From: Paramacrobiotus metropolitanus
Taxonomy: Eukaryota > Tardigrada > Eutardigrada > Parachela > Macrobiotidae
Direction of reading: 5' to 3'
DNA: 64,000 bases
Assembly (NCBI RefSeq): GCF_019649055.1
Contig: NW_026570225.1
Span: 3,286,001 to 3,350,000 of the forward strand
Part shown: positions 5,180 to 62,230 of the stretch, one piece after another
How the letters are laid out: every line of letters begins with the position of its first letter
Position numbering within the stretch: position 1 is the stretch's first letter
Program-made: the position numbers and the translations under genes
Notes under the pieces: generated by a model
Databases searched by the model: none
What the model was told of the DNA's origin: nothing
What the model saw: the letters and a program-made list of their open reading frames with translations, nothing else

Positions 5180-8100
5180 ATGGCAGGCCCTCCTGCCATC
5201 GGTGCATTGCACCGCGAATGGATGGACAAGACGAAGAAACTGCATGCGAGTGCCGATGAGAAGTACGACTTGCTTAACGTCCGTGACAAGATCATTCGGC
5301 TCGTATCCAAATCTCAAGGCAGTTCCTACGACGAGGAACTCGACAGTGCTCCCCTTCTCAAGGGAACCTGCATTGAAATGTGTCCCGAGAAAGAACGTTA
5401 CGAACGCATCAAGCAGGAGCGCGTTGGCCTTTTTGAACAAGAAAAATACATGGTGAAGGATTTTTCTCGTCAAGCTGCTGATCAAGAAATGCCCTTGCCC
5501 AGTGAACTGCGCACACAAGAAGCGCTGCAGACCACGATGAATTACCTGTTGCGCGAGATTATCGCCAATCCCATGGATATTCCCGAGGGTTCTTTATGTG
5601 CTGCGGGATGGTACGATTTTATTTGGCGTCGCATCCGCGCCATCCGCAAAGAGATCACGCAGCAGCGCCTGTCGGGAGTGGAAATTGCGAGGATACTGGA
5701 GCAAATGTGCCGTTTCCATATCGTCTCTTTCCACATGTTTTGCGAGGTGGATCGTAATCAGTTCGACAGTAAACTGAATCTGGAGAATCTTAATGACTGT
5801 CTGGCGGGTCTGGAGCGCGTGTACCATCAAATGGAACGAGCAGGCGAAGCGTCGCCCCATCTGGCGGAATTCCGCGCGTACGAAATGTTTTTACGAATCT
5901 GGACGGATCGCATCGATCTGGTGAAGATCACTCTGGATGCTGCCAAGTTTGACAAAAGCCGGGAAGTCGTCTTCGTTAAGAAAGTCATCAGCTCGGTGAA
6001 TAACAAATCTTATACGGATTATATTGCCCTGATGCGGCAGGCGGACTACTGTTTGGCCTGTTTGATGCATCTGTATTTACCGGTGATGCAAGCCAGTGCA
6101 CTGCGCGCACTGTACCGTTCCTGTGGCGGCGGGAGGTCGCGCGATCCGAAATCGGCCATCGGGTTGAAAAAACTGCAGCTGATGTTGGGCATTGAGACGG
6201 ACATAGAAATGCTGCGCTTCTGTACGCATAACAAACTGGAAATCGACCGGGAGAACGGTGTCGTGTCATTTCCCACTGGTTTTCATCCAGCTGATCCCAA
6301 ACTGTACAAACGCACCCTATCCCGACACATCCACGCGCGAGCACCAGGAAACATGGCCGAGGCTGTAGCCAAGCAGAAACTGGAAGAAATTCCCGCACCG
6401 CAGATTGTCGAGATCTGTTCTTTTGATGACAATGGATTGTACATTGGAATCGATCCGTTCGAAGTGATCCCCGGGAAAGAGGAGGAAAATGTTAAGCAGA
6501 CCCCTGCTGCCAGATCTCCGACTACTAAGAACCACGTGGATTTTGGCTTTGACTCACTATCCTCCGGAGCTAAACCTTTATCAGTCAGCCCTATGCGTTT
6601 TGATGTCCCATACGCACAACCTTCGAATGCTTTCCAGTTTTCTGCAAACTTGCTTCCTGTGAGTATTTTAATTAATTTGATAGCCGGATTTCATCGTATT
6701 CTCTCACCGAATTATTTTACGACAGATGAAAATAAGTGTGATAGTTCGGTTTTGAAAAAGTAAGCATTCGTAAACAGTATTAGCATGCAAGTGTAAAAGG
6801 TGAGGGATTTAAAAGGTGAGGGAGGTGGGTGAGGGGTGAGGGAGGGTGAGGGATTTGTAAAAGGTGAGGATTTAGTTGATCTGTATTTGTACTGGTTCCG
6901 CTTTTAGAGTTCCCCGGGGATACGGTTGCCCAGTACGTCGTTACCTACTATTAACTCTTCACTTTCTGGATTTACTCGTGGAAAGCGCGTTTATTCTGAT
7001 TCTGATGGACTGGATGAAGATGTAGTGGAAATTCCGCAGTCTCCGAATGCAAAACGGGTACACGTAAATGACCCTGTCACCGTAACCCCGGCCCGGCGGC
7101 CATCCTTGGAAATTTCCAGGCCGCTGCAGCGCACTCCATCCAGAAAAGTGGAGAGTCCCATTCCTCTTGAAGACGCCATCAAAAAGCCCATAGAGGTGGT
7201 GGAGTTACGAAGATATCCTAATCCCACGCATCCCGTGTTACTGCATGCACGAAGTATATGCCAAGCTCAAGCTGCAATGAAAAATGTTTTTGTTTCCTGG
7301 ATTGATCATATCCGAAAAATTCGATCTCCAACACGACACTTTGCCGACCTTGTTCCCACTGATGATCAGGTGGAATTTGCGGATCGACTACGCTATCACG
7401 AAGAGCGTCAACTGCTATGGTCGCCATTTCCTTTGCGGAATATCTTTTGTTTGCCGCATAATTCTGATTTGGTTGTTTGTACTGTGATGATCATGGTCGT
7501 GTCCATTGACTCTGAACATGAACCAATGTCTCGATGGCTCCATGTGAAATTCGGTCAAGTCACTGGTGATAATGCCGATCCAGTGCATGAACTCACATGC
7601 GAAAGTGAAGGTCGCTCGTTGCGGTTAATTTTTATGGAGGCTATCGGTAACAGTACAGTGGAAAATATTGAACGGTACGCCAAGGAGTTGAATGGTGTCA
7701 TGCTTTTTTGCCGCTCACGTTCTGATCTCGAGTATGGAAAAGAACGAATGGACGAACTGAAAATACTTCGTGCTAATCGTCCCACTCTACCGGTCGTAGT
7801 ATTCTGCTGTGATGCGACAGTAACGCGCAGCGATATTGCAGATTTGACAACAAACGAGGATTTATTGCTAGATTTCTTTGTTCCCCAAGCTAATGCATCC
7901 TTAGTGTTGGCGTGTGCTGTTTGGGAATCGTTTTTATGGGTCATCCAACATCGTGCGCGAAATCCCCATCCTGTGATAACTACACTAAGCAGTGTCCTAA
8001 GTGAAATGTTTGGGCAATTTGTGACAATTTATCGCACCGTAAAACGAGAAATTCAAGATGATTTGTCATTGGGCGATACTGTGTGGATTTGGAACCGAGT

Positions 8101-46389: not shown

Positions 46390-47848
<1,459 letters not shown>

Positions 47849-49708: not shown

Positions 49709-51159
<1,451 letters not shown>

Positions 51160-56008: not shown

Positions 56009-57474
56009 TTAACATGAAAAATACGGATACGTCGTAGTGGTAGCAATTCCGCATTGGTTGTTTTTGTTCCTTGACATCAAAATATAGCCCCTAAACGGAA
56101 GGAGAAATATTTTTACATAATATATTTTATGATATTGATGTTGAAACATTTCATCTGACAACATTAAAGAAAGCAATTGAACTCACTTCAGGCCCCAGTC
56201 TGGACCAAAGGAATTCTTCACGATCCAATAGTCACCTGCCGTCGGATCGGTGCCGTAGCCGACAATCAGCACGGCATGATCAAGATTCGTGCTGGAGCAG
56301 TTCGGTTCATTGTACACTCCACCGGCATACGTCATGAATGACGGCTGCGAAGAATCCATAGCCGATGCAATCGGACCAATGCTGGCCACAGCTACTTTCA
56401 GTTGCTTTTCCGTGGCGTCGATGAAGTCGTAACCGCTAAGAGTGGCCGCTCTCTTTTTGGGATCATAGGCGCATTTGCCGGGCTGTGCCGAATCAGGATA
56501 GTCCGAGAGCGTTTCAACACCATTGATTTTTAGGTACTGGTAGGTTTCATCCAGAGTGCACGTTCCGTTAACATAGGTGGAACATTTGGTGGGATCTGCG
56601 AAATTCCAGTAAGGTTGACATTAAAGACATTAACGAATTTCTTTCGAATAGCAAACTCGTTACCTTTTTCACAACAGTCTTTGAGATTCTGTTCACTCAG
56701 TGCGTTCAACTGCCCGGTTTTGCGGAACCATTGACCTTCGAGGGCGCCGTTAATGGCGAAGTACTGGGAACTGATGCAGCCTTGTTCGCTTCGTACCACG
56801 GTCACGTAGCCTTCCGTTCGCCAGTCGACAGCGTCCGGGACGCTCACTTCGTCCAGTAATGTTGGCTTGCAAGCGGCATCGGAATGCTGTTTGTGATGAT
56901 GGCGGCGATGTTTGTGGCGGAGACCGGTACGCGGCGAGGCAGTGAATGTCCGACTTAGTCGAGAGAACTCATCGAGTGTCTGAGTTACAACGAGATTAAC
57001 GTCTATTTTATTTTTCTTCAAATTAAAAATAAATTCCCCAGGTTTACAATATCTTACCAGATCGGTGAACTGGTTGACCCCCATAGTGTAGGTGGTTTTT
57101 CCCAAGCTGTACTGAATGTTATGATGTGTAATTTGTTTGACATTGTTTTCCCACGTTATACGTCGATGGTGTTCCTCTTCGCCGGCGTATGTTTTTCCTG
57201 CAGATAAACCCGGCGTATTAACTTGAAGCCAAGCGCACATCTATGCATTATGAGTCAAATGATATTATATTCTGGTTATAACATTTAGGCACATAAGTTT
57301 GGCTTATTTCCTCGAGTGCGGCTGAATAACCATTGGCTGTAACGTTGAAATCAGTGTCTTACCATGTTGAATTTTCCACGCTTTCCAATCGCTATCTAAA
57401 TCACTGTCCACGGGATGACGGGCATACGCGTGCACCGCCACAAGTAACAATGTAAGAGCAACTCTCGAGTTCAT
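56009..57474 (-). CDS. Cathepsin L-like protein lacking the catalytic Cys
   Basis: Five exons on the minus strand (57474-57363, 57197-57058, 56979-56664, 56595-56187, 56090-56009) give about 352 residues, all in frame. It has a signal peptide (MNSRVALTLLLVAVHAYA), an I29 propeptide with GVNQFTDL, and the mature start VDWRTEGYV. At the active site, the usual CGSCWAF reads CISSQYF: the nucleophile Cys is Ser (codon 56767-56769) and the oxyanion-hole Gln six residues earlier is Glu. His (LDHAVLIVGYG) and Asn (KNSFGPDWG) remain. The usual GCNGG turn is also gone, and a His/Arg-rich insert (RHKHRRHHHKQH) sits between pro- and mature regions. The open frame, splice sites and secretion signal argue for a working non-peptidase rather than a pseudogene. 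A Ser in this place also occurs in silicateins, but there is no other reason to call it one. Confidence 0.9.
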
Positions 57475-58273
57475 GTTAACAATTGAGATTTTTTGCGTTT
57501 AGTACGCTGCTGGTCTGCAAATAAATTAACGAAACCGTTGGGTGAGAACGCACAATCTGCCTGTATGGACCAGAAGTGGAAAACTGAACAACCGGCAGCG
57601 GAGACAGCCCACCTTCGGATCGTTATTATAAGCGCTGATATACTGTAAACTTCTTAATGTCTTATCGCATGTAGTGCTGTTGTACTTTCACCAGAAGCAT
57701 GGGATTAGGTCTTTTTACAGTTATCAGACTGTTTTCATTGCGCCATGTTCATTTCCTAAGCACCTGATCGTGCATACATGTAGCGTAATTTATGTTTGTC
57801 ACTAATAAGTGATAACCTTTTAGTGTGTCAGGTGACTTAACTGAGGGTACCCGTAGACGGTACAGGTAATAATTGATAACTAAATCAAAACTAAAAGCAC
57901 CGAAACGGAAAAAAATAATCAAAATTAGATACAAAACGTGCAACTACTTATGAAGTAACATGCAACTTCTTATTCTACTTATTCTAAGAAACTAAGACTT
58001 ATGCTCTGACACCTGCTTACGTACACGAGTACTGTTTTCACAAACGATCCCATATCTTTATCTGTAGAACATCCCGAAACTCTGAAATTTCTCTAAATTT
58101 GCGTAACTATACAGCCAATAAGCAATTTATAACTGAAACTCAATAAAAACCACTCCGATTAAAAAATGAAGTAGGAAGTATCAGAAAACAGAGTAGAGAA
58201 CTTTAAACAGATATCATAAGCGTAAACACTTGTGCCGACAGCTTCCACCACCATACGCGAGAAATCGGCGATT
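57475..58273. other. Spacer, inactive cathepsin and KLHL20
   Basis: About 800 bases that hold the inactive cathepsin's promoter side and the KLHL20 3' end. No gene or repeat is recognised. Confidence 0.5.
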
Positions 58274-61200
58274 TCAATCCGAATCTTGCTTGATATTTAA
58301 ATTGTTCAACTTATCGACGGCACCGCCAATTTTCTGCTGGTCACCTAGAGGTGTTTTGCCCGTACCAAAAGTGCCAACGACAGCTACACCACCGCCTAGA
58401 CGCCGGTAATTCATGGTTGCACAAGGCCGCCAGACCACGGTTTCGGGATCAAAAACCTCTGCAGATCTCAAATAGTAATTTCCATCAAATCCACCCACAG
58501 CAAACATTAAACCATTAACGATCGCCAATCCGACACCACTGCGCCGGCTGCTCATGGCAATCACAGGATCCCAAGTACAAGTTTTCGGATCGTAGCGCTC
58601 ACAAGAAGATAATTCCATATGGTCATCCCTGCAAAAATGTTATGTATCCGAATGTCCGGAGACCGTTGCTAGTAAAGTTATCTCAGAAGCAGACAAAATA
58701 GAACAGCACAAAAACAAAAATTGTGGAACGGTAGGGACGCGATCATCATAACTTATATGCATAACACGATAATGTGCCCAGTAGCCAGCCAACATAGTAA
58801 AGGTTTAAAATACATTTCTGGTTCTCACCTTCCTCCAACTGCGTACAAATGCCCATTCAAAACCGCACAACCCAAATGTTTCCTTCTGGTCCCCATTGGC
58901 GTCACGGTCTGCCATCGATTCGTCCGCGGATCATAACGCTCTACCGTATTGAGGGGGTTGCTTCCTAAAAATAATCTATGCATTAAGAGATCCGAGGATT
59001 TTAAACAAACAGAAATCTCACCGTCAGATCCACCGCACGCATAGAGATAACCATTAAGAACCGCCACAGCTACTCCCAAACGCTTTGTGCTCATAGAGGC
59101 CACTTTCGCCCACCGGTCAGCTTGAGGATCATATTTTTCAACAAGATTCAAACAAGACACACCATCCTAAAAAGCCCATATCAATAAAGAATCGAGGAAA
59201 GTAAAATAAAGAGTTCAAGAGCCGACCTGTCCTCCAACAGCATAAAGGTGACCATCCATTACGGCAACACCGACACTAGTTCTGCAGGAGCTGGTAGGGG
59301 CTACTTTATCACTCCACTGATTTGTTTGTGGGTCGTATCTACAGATAACAACGGACTATTTGCAAATAAACAGATACGAAATCATGTCTACTCTTACCGC
59401 TCAACGGAGTTCAGGTAGGCCTGGCCATCATGTCCCCCAACAGCATACAATAAATCATTGAGTACCGCCACCCCGACTCCACAACGTCGTTTGGACATGG
59501 GTGCAATCAGTTTCCATTCATTAAGTTGAGGATCATATTTTTCCACGGAATTAATCGCATCTCCACTGCACCATCCACCTGCAAAAACAACAACTCACTT
59601 TTTCAGTTAGTGGGCAAGACCAAACCAAACGATTCATTCATGGTAAGCAAAAAAAACAACCATACAATCGAAAACAACACTGCGCTGCCATTCAAATTAC
59701 GCGAATGAACATAAGCAGCAGCAGGAGCGTTAAAAAAACTTAAAAGTACATTTCAGGAATTAATACCCACCGACAGCGTAGAGCATTTCTCCCCGGACGA
59801 TTGGTCTGCGAGGTTTGGTATGTGGCCCTTGCATTGCAGAGCGCTCGGTGGGTAGCAAAAGATAGTTTTTTGCTTCATCTATCATCTCTCGACAATTTTC
59901 TTCACTCTTAAAAAGAGATTCCGCACTCACGACACTGACCAGGAATTTTGGTGTGACTAGGCACAAACGGATTTTCTCTAAAACCGATGAAACATGTTGC
60001 CGGCGCTCTTTTACATCGTGTCGGATCCAAGATATGGCAGCCTAAAGCAGTGTGAAGAATGAGCCAGCATAAATGCTGAGAAATTATAACCAGAAAATAA
60101 AATACGGTATTTTTAACTACTGCATATACCTGATACACTTGCTCCTCTTTGCTGATATTCAATTCATCACTGGCTAACAAATCCACTAACTGCGCCACAG
60201 GGAGCAAAAGGAATTCCTCACTTAAAACCACTTCCAAAAAATTCAGCTGCGCGAAACGATTGGCAGCTTTAAGAAGATCGCGACAGGAATATGCATCAGC
60301 AAAACTTCTGATTCCCAAGCAATTGGATGGATCAAGCTGCTTTTTTAAGAAATCACAACAATTATCCTGGATTTCTTGCATTTGGAGGAGACAGGCCGCA
60401 GGAAGCAGAGTTTGCACATTTCTCTCCTCGATTGATATCTTCCCGGCGTATGCGAAATCAATTAGATCTGCAGACACTTTTAAATGACGCGCACGTAAAA
60501 AATGTATAAAGATTTAACATACATATTAAGGCAGTGCTTAATCGCTAGACCAAACATTCGTTAGCGCTGATTCTATGCAATACGCTATGCAAAACGTCAT
60601 CGAACTCTGACCAAGATGACACCCTTCATCAGGTCTCATACCTTCCACAGCGGTTTCATCAATATCCTTTAAAGTTATTTCCGCTTGCTTGCTTTCCGAT
60701 AAATCGCCAGTAAACATCGCCCGAAAATAAGGGCTGTAACGAACGCGAAAGAAATTGAGCAGTGAAAAGGGTATCCGTGCAAACCATACAGAATTACGGT
60801 ATGCACTATGCAGCATAATTCTGTCATGTCTCTGTGGTACTCGAACAAGGTACAGCTACACTAAAAACCATCTAATACCAATAAAGATTTACAAAATTAA
60901 GTCTTCTCTAATTAATAAATATTATAATGCCCCTGATTTACGTGAAGACAAGAAAACAGCACGCGAGAAACACGTATTACCGATCATAAGATGTGAGTGC
61001 TCCACTAACCTGCACGCAGCCAGAACAGCACGATGAGCAAAAATGTGCCTGTCGTTTACCACAATGGTTACGTCACACAATTCGCGGCTTTTCCGCAACT
61101 GAAACAACGATTCCAACATATCCCGATGATGCTTTTCGGAGAAATATTCTGCTATAATAGGGGCAGCGGTTCGAGAATCAGCAGACGATACATCGGGAAC

Positions 61201-61284
61201 GGATGTGTTGGGGTTCAGCATTCCAGGAGGAAGCATTCCTCCTCCGGACAGCATGCCAGCCGTTAAATTAAAATTCCCAGACAT
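58274..61284 (-). CDS. KLHL20: Kelch-like protein 20 / diablo (CUL3 adaptor)
   Basis: Nine exons on the minus strand: 61284-61010, 60733-60642, 60476-60130, 60041-59771, 59578-59398, 59338-59227, 59166-59022, 58964-58829, 58628-58274; about 637 residues. Order: a Gly/Pro/Met-rich leader, BTB domain ([34 protein letters not shown]), BACK domain ([33 protein letters not shown]), then six Kelch repeats ([107 protein letters not shown]). The repeat spelling is that of KLHL20 and fly diablo. It is a substrate adaptor of CUL3 ubiquitin ligase. The last 40 residues after the final repeat (from [11 protein letters not shown]) are longer than usual. The ATG at 61284 is the only one in frame after an upstream stop; a 5' UTR exon may lie near 62231-62480. 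Confidence 0.96.
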
Positions 61285-62230
61285 TCTTATCCGGGTCGAT
61301 CGATAACGGTGCACAAGATTAAATCCCCGCAGAAATTTGGGGAATTTAAATTTCTTCGAGGAAGGCACGGTGGATTAATAGCCTGAGCAGGTGATTACAC
61401 AACATGTATGCTCCACTTCATAAACATCATCCGTCTTTCCGAAAGATACCAACAACAACCCATGGTACTAATTATAATATGCTTACTTATGGTTAGTGTA
61501 CTTCTATGTATAAAAGCAAAATACGGACACGGACTTTTCACTTAAGTACTTTACGAAGTACGAGTATGGACTTCACAGATTTCCATTATATAACAATTAC
61601 AGTATCCTGTTAAAAAAAGAAATCCTACCAACTGGGATAATACGGTACTACTACTAACAACTGTGCGCCATAGAGATACTTTAACCCTTTAGAAATGGCA
61701 GCGTATCTTGCAAGGAACATCTTGCAAGGAGATGCTGTACAGCCTGTACTTACTGCGCACTTGCTGCAAGTGACTTGCACAGTAACAGCAGGCACATCGA
61801 TTTTAATCTGTTTCCGAGGAAGGAACTACTGCAGTCTCATCCACACAGAAGGTCGAAGCTAGAGGTAGGATATTTTCAAACACAGAAAAAAGGGACAGAA
61901 AACGTACATACAGAAAGAGCATTCGTCTACACTCTTTACGGTTATAATGATATACAATATCTATATTTTATATAGATACACTGACATGTTATTGTTAATC
62001 GCACAATTACGTATCAATTAACCACCGTATTAGAAAGTAAATAGGAATTAGGAATTATGCAAAAATAATTTTATATTTTAAAATAATAATATCGACGAAT
62101 ATCAAGCGGGAGGGCTCAGTAGCAAAGGATGGTAGCAAGTGGCTTAACCTGGCATTCACAGTGCAGTAGAAAGTTAGAAAGACCGTGCCGTATCGTTAGC
62201 TACTGAAATACACAAAAGACGATTACTTAC
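61285..62230. other. Upstream of KLHL20
   Basis: About 950 bases of 5' flank, AT-rich and with no frame of interest. Presumably 5' UTR, an intron and promoter of KLHL20. Confidence 0.45.

Follow-up and report, generated by a model that had tools for sequence, protein, structure and literature searches.

Proteases devoid of their catalytic residues are encountered repeatedly in animals, commonly raising the question of whether such proteins are rubbish or whether their fold has been put to a new use. Among papain-like proteins, one case is that of the SMIPP-Cs of scabies mites, a small lineage-specific family found beside five active paralogs, in which the catalytic Cys is replaced by Ser and the catalytic His by Gln or Leu in 5/5 members, and the Gln by Glu in 3/5 (PMC5956821). 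These proteins are excreted, and two recombinant members are reported to have bound calcium and promoted clotting (PMC7815109). In flukes, TrCB1.6, an inactive cathepsin B paralog carrying Gly in place of Cys, is described as highly expressed and as forming complexes with chicken cystatin once processed, but not as the proform (PMC7054455). Likewise, Tribolium cathepsin L and B homologs devoid of critical residues are expressed, and the knock-down of the one annotated as TINAG-like led to 20% mortality, the pupae failing to eclose (PMC4727968). For tardigrades, cathepsins K, Z and L1 have been reported in Milnesium (PMC2835947). A protein of the kind described below is not mentioned in the titles or abstract openings of the tardigrade cathepsin papers listed, and the part of a spider-mite survey considered here contains nothing on inactive members (PMC3407033).

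A gene with a similar pattern of lesions is located in the genome of the tardigrade Paramacrobiotus metropolitanus, in the 64,000-nt stretch of DNA analyzed here (the window; contig C5, 3286001-3350000). Matches to the TPS family (PF00982) number seven in this genome, on three contigs, and matches to the DM domain number five, of which two, at 2.135 and 2.163 Mb of C5, are separated by 28 kb. For P. metropolitanus, five DMRT genes have been described, two of which form a complex of more than 30 kb on Parri_scaffold0000005, drawn within 1.96-2.37 Mb (PMC11191345), and the window thus probably belongs to that scaffold. A search for a lipocalin of the tardigrade type led to an ordinary fatty-acid-binding protein, with two further weak lipocalin matches. 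This target gene (57474-56009, minus strand) comprises five exons, which encode a protein of 352 aa with no internal stops, and its introns are bounded by GT-AG in 4/4 cases. The segment 56664-56979, in which the initial annotation had recognized a cathepsin L homolog with Ser for Cys and a His-rich insert, corresponds to exon 3, with exact boundaries (Table 1). Based on the comparisons reported below, we consider it probable (roughly 0.78) that the target is a secreted cathepsin L pseudoprotease belonging to a family of three genes, in which the catalytic Cys was lost once, four Cys were gained and a basic arm precedes the mature domain.

Table 1. Features of the target gene and of the two canonical cathepsin L genes nearby, numbered along the window.
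Feature	Positions	Strand	Basis or context
Exon 1: start codon, signal peptide (by eye), propeptide start	57363..57474	-	gene model
Exon 2: I29 propeptide (I29 match spans exon 1 into exon 3)	57058..57197	-	gene model, Pfam
Exon 3: propeptide end, basic His-rich linker, mature N-terminus, active-site region	56664..56979	-	gene model, alignment
Exon 4: remaining papain domain, including His296 and Asn317	56187..56595	-	gene model
Exon 5: C-terminus and stop codon	56009..56090	-	gene model
His/Arg/Lys-rich block RHKHRRHHHKQH, residues 105-116	56884..56919	-	gene model, codons
Linker Cys121; one linker Cys per clade member, two columns off in C37a and C37b	56869..56871	-	alignment
Ser155 (TCC), at catalytic Cys25 position	56767..56769	-	alignment, codon read
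Extra Cys187, second C of DCC; clade-wide, one column	56671..56673	-	alignment
Extra Cys202, small insertion at GCNGG turn; clade-wide, one column	56558..56560	-	alignment
His296, catalytic position, kept in target; Thr in both sister paralogs	56276..56278	-	alignment
Asn317 (KNSFG), catalytic position, kept; next Trp position is Phe	56213..56215	-	alignment
C-terminal Cys352; clade-wide, one column; not Cys in seven canonical genes	56012..56014	-	alignment
CLA, canonical cathepsin L gene, CGSCWAFS	46390..47848	+	same window as target
CLB, canonical cathepsin L gene, CGSCWAFS	49709..51159	+	same window as target

The resemblance of the target to cathepsins is not due to chance, since its protein matches the Pfam families Inhibitor_I29 (1.8e-19, residues 30-89) and Peptidase_C1 (1.9e-54, residues 131-348). 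Among solved structures, the top five matches (best E 1.5e-73) were all chains of cathepsin L1 or procathepsin L. Together with the I29 and Peptidase_C1 domains, the six aligned canonical Cys place it in the papain family C1A with a cathepsin-L-like fold; the pairing of these Cys in three disulfides is presumed from the family. The signal peptide was called by eye.

Alignment of the target with seven canonical cathepsins L from the same genome indicated that the papain core is conserved and the catalytic site is not: 88 columns do not vary among the canonical genes, and the target agrees with them in 70. As the initial annotation had stated, the nucleophile Cys is replaced by Ser (Ser155, codon TCC, at Cys25), the oxyanion Gln19 by Glu149 in an ungapped alignment, in which a one-residue shift would bring Gln150 near, and the GCNGG turn is missing, both glycines after Cys65 being replaced by Thr196-Tyr197. 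The I29 match, His296, Asn317, the open frame and the four GT-AG introns also agree with its view that propeptide, His, Asn, frame and splicing all survive, and so does the putative signal peptide with regard to secretion. That annotation did not include Cys121, Cys187, Cys202 and Cys352, the loss of two Trp, or the two canonical cathepsin L genes of the window. In fact, the position of Trp26 is occupied by Gln156 and that of the NSWG Trp by Phe319, and Ile153 is found at the position of Gly23. Features of active cysteine peptidases are therefore lacking at Cys25, at Trp26 and, allowing for the possible one-residue shift, at Gln19, and we infer that the target has no protease activity. This secreted protein would have lost the cleavage of peptide bonds while retaining the fold of papain, together with an I29 propeptide and a signal peptide. 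Nevertheless, because the target retains His and Asn, unlike its sisters, it may display a weak Ser-based activity.

A search of the genome (169.8 Mb, 533 contigs) with the target protein identified as its next relatives two tandem genes of contig C37, named C37a and C37b. Their identity to the target amounts to 53% in the largest exon; for the active-site exon, the values are 47 and 43%. C37a is an intact gene encoding 341 aa. C37b is open from exon 3 on; in its exon 2, either the reading frame slips or the acceptor has shifted, and the donor that follows reads GC if taken at the usual place, or GT if taken a few bases further on. This damage (locus L001, about 6400-6720) is found in a gene whose later exons show a low dN/dS against C37a; it possibly reflects decay that set in recently, or else alternative splicing, and part of the family may consequently be decaying. 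Both sisters display Ser at position 25 (CAGSIYY and CAPSLYF), encoded in the target, C37a and C37b by three different codons (TCC, TCA and TCG), and the position of the catalytic His is occupied by Thr in C37a and C37b (ACG in each). In trees calculated with C22, a fourth gene with Ser25, left out, the clade formed by the three genes received support of 100/100 with all columns, and of 100/99 after removal of the linker, active-site, extra-Cys, His and C-terminal columns; in these trees of the genes of this genome, CLA was the nearest canonical relative of the clade. The replacement of the catalytic Cys by Ser would have occurred once in this family, and four Cys would have been gained. The models of C2, C36a, C36b, C100 and C292 are automatic, and their ends may be wrong and small exons are possible.

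Upon addition of C22 (locus L004), the three-gene clade formed no resolved group with all columns and received 74/39 with the trait columns removed, and the grouping of all four Ser25 genes obtained 85/85 and 60/57, respectively. Due to its very long branch (3.29 and 3.24) and this weak support, C22 was dropped as a member of the clade. Its Ser25 is encoded by AGC, as opposed to the TCN codons of the clade, and an independent origin is therefore possible; the His is kept, and positions 22 and 65 have no Cys in the alignment. In the automatic model used for C22 in the alignment and trees, small exons placed ahead of the mature domain are spurious, and the first exon was corrected separately. 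The product of this exon (446-557 of the locus) comprises a probable signal peptide together with SADALRRLKHRKHK; the exon is spliced in phase to the mature domain (1027 onward) and ends in LRRLKHRKHK, so that KHRKHK is joined directly to the Ser25 papain domain. The I29 propeptide is absent from this model; however, a stretch upstream of the first exon weakly matches the propeptide part of the search profile (E 3.8e-4), and the loss of the propeptide is consequently to be read as a result of the model. The basic tail beside the mature domain of C22 weakly suggests that such a tail is part of the working protein.

The gain of Cys is a further trait of the clade. From the linker onward, ten Cys are present in the target, C37a and C37b (the latter counted from exon 3 on), nine in the mature part and one in the linker, corresponding to the six of the canonical disulfides and four more, whereas each of the seven canonical genes has seven in its mature part; C100 has one further Cys, in the propeptide as modelled. 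In addition, 16 residues are common in column to the target, C37a and C37b and absent from the seven canonical genes. The four gained Cys could form two extra disulfides, and the predicted full pairing of the ten Cys would give a stable extracellular protein with no free thiol. A shared ancestry is less certain for the linker Cys, which lies in different columns in the target and in the C37 pair, than for the three others.

Another putative structural feature of the family is the basic segment that precedes the mature domain. In the target, the block RHKHRRHHHKQH comprises 6 His and is encoded by mixed codons (CAC, CAT, CGC, AAA, CAG), a plain trinucleotide repeat being ruled out; the basic segments of the sisters read KNHLRHHRNG in C37a and KAHTRHHKNN in C37b. 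All three contain an R-H-H that continues with His or with a basic residue, again with mixed codons; it precedes the linker Cys by nine residues in C37a and C37b, and by eleven in the target. Of the target His block, in which the initial annotation saw a possible metal binder, only this R-H-H recurs in C37a and C37b, and in different alignment columns; therefore, it is a recurring motif not proved homologous, and its common origin is less sure. Given its location between propeptide and mature domain, the block might be a processing site, at which the linker would be cut in trans by a proprotein convertase or a neighboring cathepsin, freeing the mature domain; cleavage in trans would be needed, as the protein would be unable to activate itself. 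Dibasic pairs are indeed found in the target (RR), C37b (RK) and C22 (RR, RK), and C37a displays R-H-H-R, with KK further upstream. However, no single cleavage motif is common to all four genes, and C22 has the basic tail without a propeptide in its model, which indicates that there the tail is not needed for propeptide removal. We thus regard a role as processing site as rather unlikely.

The loss of the catalytic Cys, the further losses specific to each copy, the conserved core and the new Cys together fit a binding protein and not an enzyme. The function that we favor for the target is that of a putative extracellular binding protein anchored to matrix or polyanions. More specifically, though tentatively, we hypothesize that the papain domain would bind a partner without cutting it, and that the His/Arg/Lys arm, with a positive charge that increases as the pH becomes acid, would hold the protein to polyanions or matrix. 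A bolder version, to which we give less credence, is that the catalytic thiol gave way to ten Cys that are all paired with one another, and that a disulfide between linker and C-terminus would tie the His-rich arm permanently to the papain domain, creating a pH- or metal-responsive matrix binder; C22, as a distant member, would have dropped its propeptide, the basic arm becoming the N-terminus of the secreted protein. The initial annotation had proposed an inhibitor, a matrix protein or a binding protein, and this proposal holds in part: its general reading, a non-catalytic protein of one of these types derived from cathepsin L, is the best supported.

A different kind of binding may be considered, in which the mature pseudoprotease acts as a decoy for cystatin-like inhibitors or propeptides and thereby shields the active cathepsins L next door. 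CLB and CLA, with intact active-site motifs, lie about 5 and 8 kb from the target gene, respectively, the papain core of the target is conserved, and the complexes of TrCB1.6 with cystatin offer a precedent (PMC7054455). On the other hand, the cleft of the target is altered (G23I, W26Q, GG to TY, and the NSWG Trp to Phe), and a search of the genome for cystatins, performed exon by exon and hence giving lower bounds, returned few and weak matches (3 places up to E 0.1, the best at 1.4e-4). The NSWG Trp is a residue that contacts cystatins. A decoy role therefore seems doubtful to us, and a protein that binds its partner while anchored to matrix or polyanions remains the reading we prefer.

In order to assess constraint, dN/dS was estimated for nine pairs by NG86, YN00 and ML, finite whole-length values being obtained by all three methods in 3/9. 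Over 257 codons, the values for C37a-C37b were 0.124 (NG86), 0.179 (YN00) and 0.143 (ML), and 0.134 (YN00) in the mature part. C36a-C36b displayed 0.18-0.23, the young pair C100-C292 displayed 0.50-0.55, and CLA-CLB gave 0.178 by NG86 and no YN00 value. In five pairs, namely the target against four relatives and C2-C36a, synonymous change was saturated, so that NG86 and YN00 gave no value, and the ML values were not relied on; a dN/dS of the target itself is consequently not obtainable. In a neutral simulation, 19, 3, 0 and 0 of 1000 copies stayed free of stops at 0.1, 0.2, 0.35 and 0.7 substitutions per site, respectively, and long-term constraint is thus well supported; a very recent loss of function would still be compatible with these results. 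Absence of the Ser from orthologs, along with missing transcripts or a neutral dN/dS, had been named as a sign of pseudogene decay in the initial annotation. Among paralogs, on which alone this was followed up, both nearest genes keep the Ser and C37a-C37b shows a dN/dS of 0.12-0.18, so that decay was not borne out. Judging from these sequences, C37a, C37b and the target constitute a maintained pseudoprotease family and not one in decay.

The low dN/dS of two sisters that are both without the catalytic His indicates that the family is maintained and that Ser chemistry is probably not what it is maintained for. A Ser-nucleophile hydrolase or a silicatein-like polymerizing protein, with Ser155-His296-Asn317 as triad, is accordingly very improbable in our view. 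The target does possess Ser, His and Asn, and, like silicateins, it is a relative of cathepsin L with Ser25 and both other residues kept (PMC6233156). However, its sisters have Thr for His under purifying selection, and the target itself has Glu for the oxyanion Gln and has lost two Trp. Moreover, silicateins are proteins of sponge spicules, and the silicatein of that study displays GAS followed by Tyr (Ala-Ser-Tyr) where the target has ISS followed by Gln (Ser-Ser-Gln); its triad alanine mutants still made silica (PMC6233156). The silicatein-like chemistry suggested initially is therefore weakened, by the Thr of the sisters as well as by the absence of Trp26, the cleft glycines and the NSWG Trp from the target, and owing to the Thr in both paralogs it was abandoned as the leading reading. 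Least probable of all is a pseudogene on its way out, which would account for the lost catalytic residues and for the frame slip or shifted acceptor of C37b exon 2, but not for the intact exons, splice sites and frame of the target, its 70/88 invariant columns, the dN/dS of 0.12-0.18 between C37a and C37b, or the stops that a neutral simulation puts into copies.

Comparison with the described systems places the target family close to the SMIPP-Cs in its pattern of sequence, both combining the change of Cys to Ser with further catalytic losses in lineage-specific copies that exist beside active ones. In contrast to SMIPP-Cs, whose closest homologs are described as mite group 1 allergens and which occur in a parasite, the closest relatives found for the target are the tardigrade's own cathepsins L. 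The descriptions of SMIPP-Cs considered here, compared as descriptions and not as sequences, hold nothing on extra Cys or on a His/basic segment before the mature domain. Consequently, the statement of the initial annotation that no named family shows this combination is to be narrowed: SMIPP-Cs, as described, display nearly the same set of lesions, and it is the extra Cys and the His/basic segment that are absent from their descriptions. Likewise, the inactive cathepsins of fluke and beetle are C1 proteins without catalytic residues found beside active ones (PMC7054455, PMC4727968). They differ from the target in that TrCB1.6 is a cathepsin B with Gly for Cys, and for the beetle proteins the description goes no further than a lack of conserved or critical residues. 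Two other groups of proteins share the Ser with the target. TINAG and TINAG-like proteins are secreted and matrix-associated, and have Ser at position 25 in a cathepsin-B-like domain without I29; membership of the target in this group was rejected, as it has an I29 propeptide and a cathepsin-L-like sequence. Testin is a relative of cathepsin L with Ser for the catalytic Cys, encoded by a rodent gene.

Dead cathepsins are thus a kind of protein already known from the SMIPP-Cs, the new parts being the extra Cys, the basic arm and the phylum, and the target family represents a modest addition, not a new kind of system. The Ser shared via different codons, the shared new Cys and the low dN/dS of the pair without His point to re-use of the fold, here among tardigrades, a phylum noted for its tolerance of stress. 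Since the set of lesions closely repeats that of the scabies-mite proteins, convergence becomes testable.

Ser at position 25 is shared by few papain-like genes of this genome. Pfam returned 66 matches, a lower bound, all of them inside the window or the loci fetched for reading, and the active-site stretch was readable in 35 genes, with Cys in 29 and Ser in 6. The latter are the target, C37a, C37b, C22 and two genes that we name TINAG-like on account of their active-site motif. In at least six further genes, the active-site exon was not readable with the cut-off applied (one in locus L007, two in L016, and others in L009, L021 and L022). The two TINAG-like genes (L024 and L025) display CAVSWAFS and CAASWAFS, with the Ser codons TCA and TCC. 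Among the remaining genes, C36b (L003) shows an insertion just ahead of the active-site Cys, NQASDWGSRCGSCW in comparison with NQGQCGSCW, which may be an artefact of the splice model. C100 and C292 (L005 and L006) form a young, divergent cathepsin-L-like pair with 89% identity and a dN/dS of about 0.5. Beside the target gene, minus-strand frames with Kelch repeats and a BTB-like part (window about 58270-61290) probably belong to a kelch-like gene, named from the look of its sequence.
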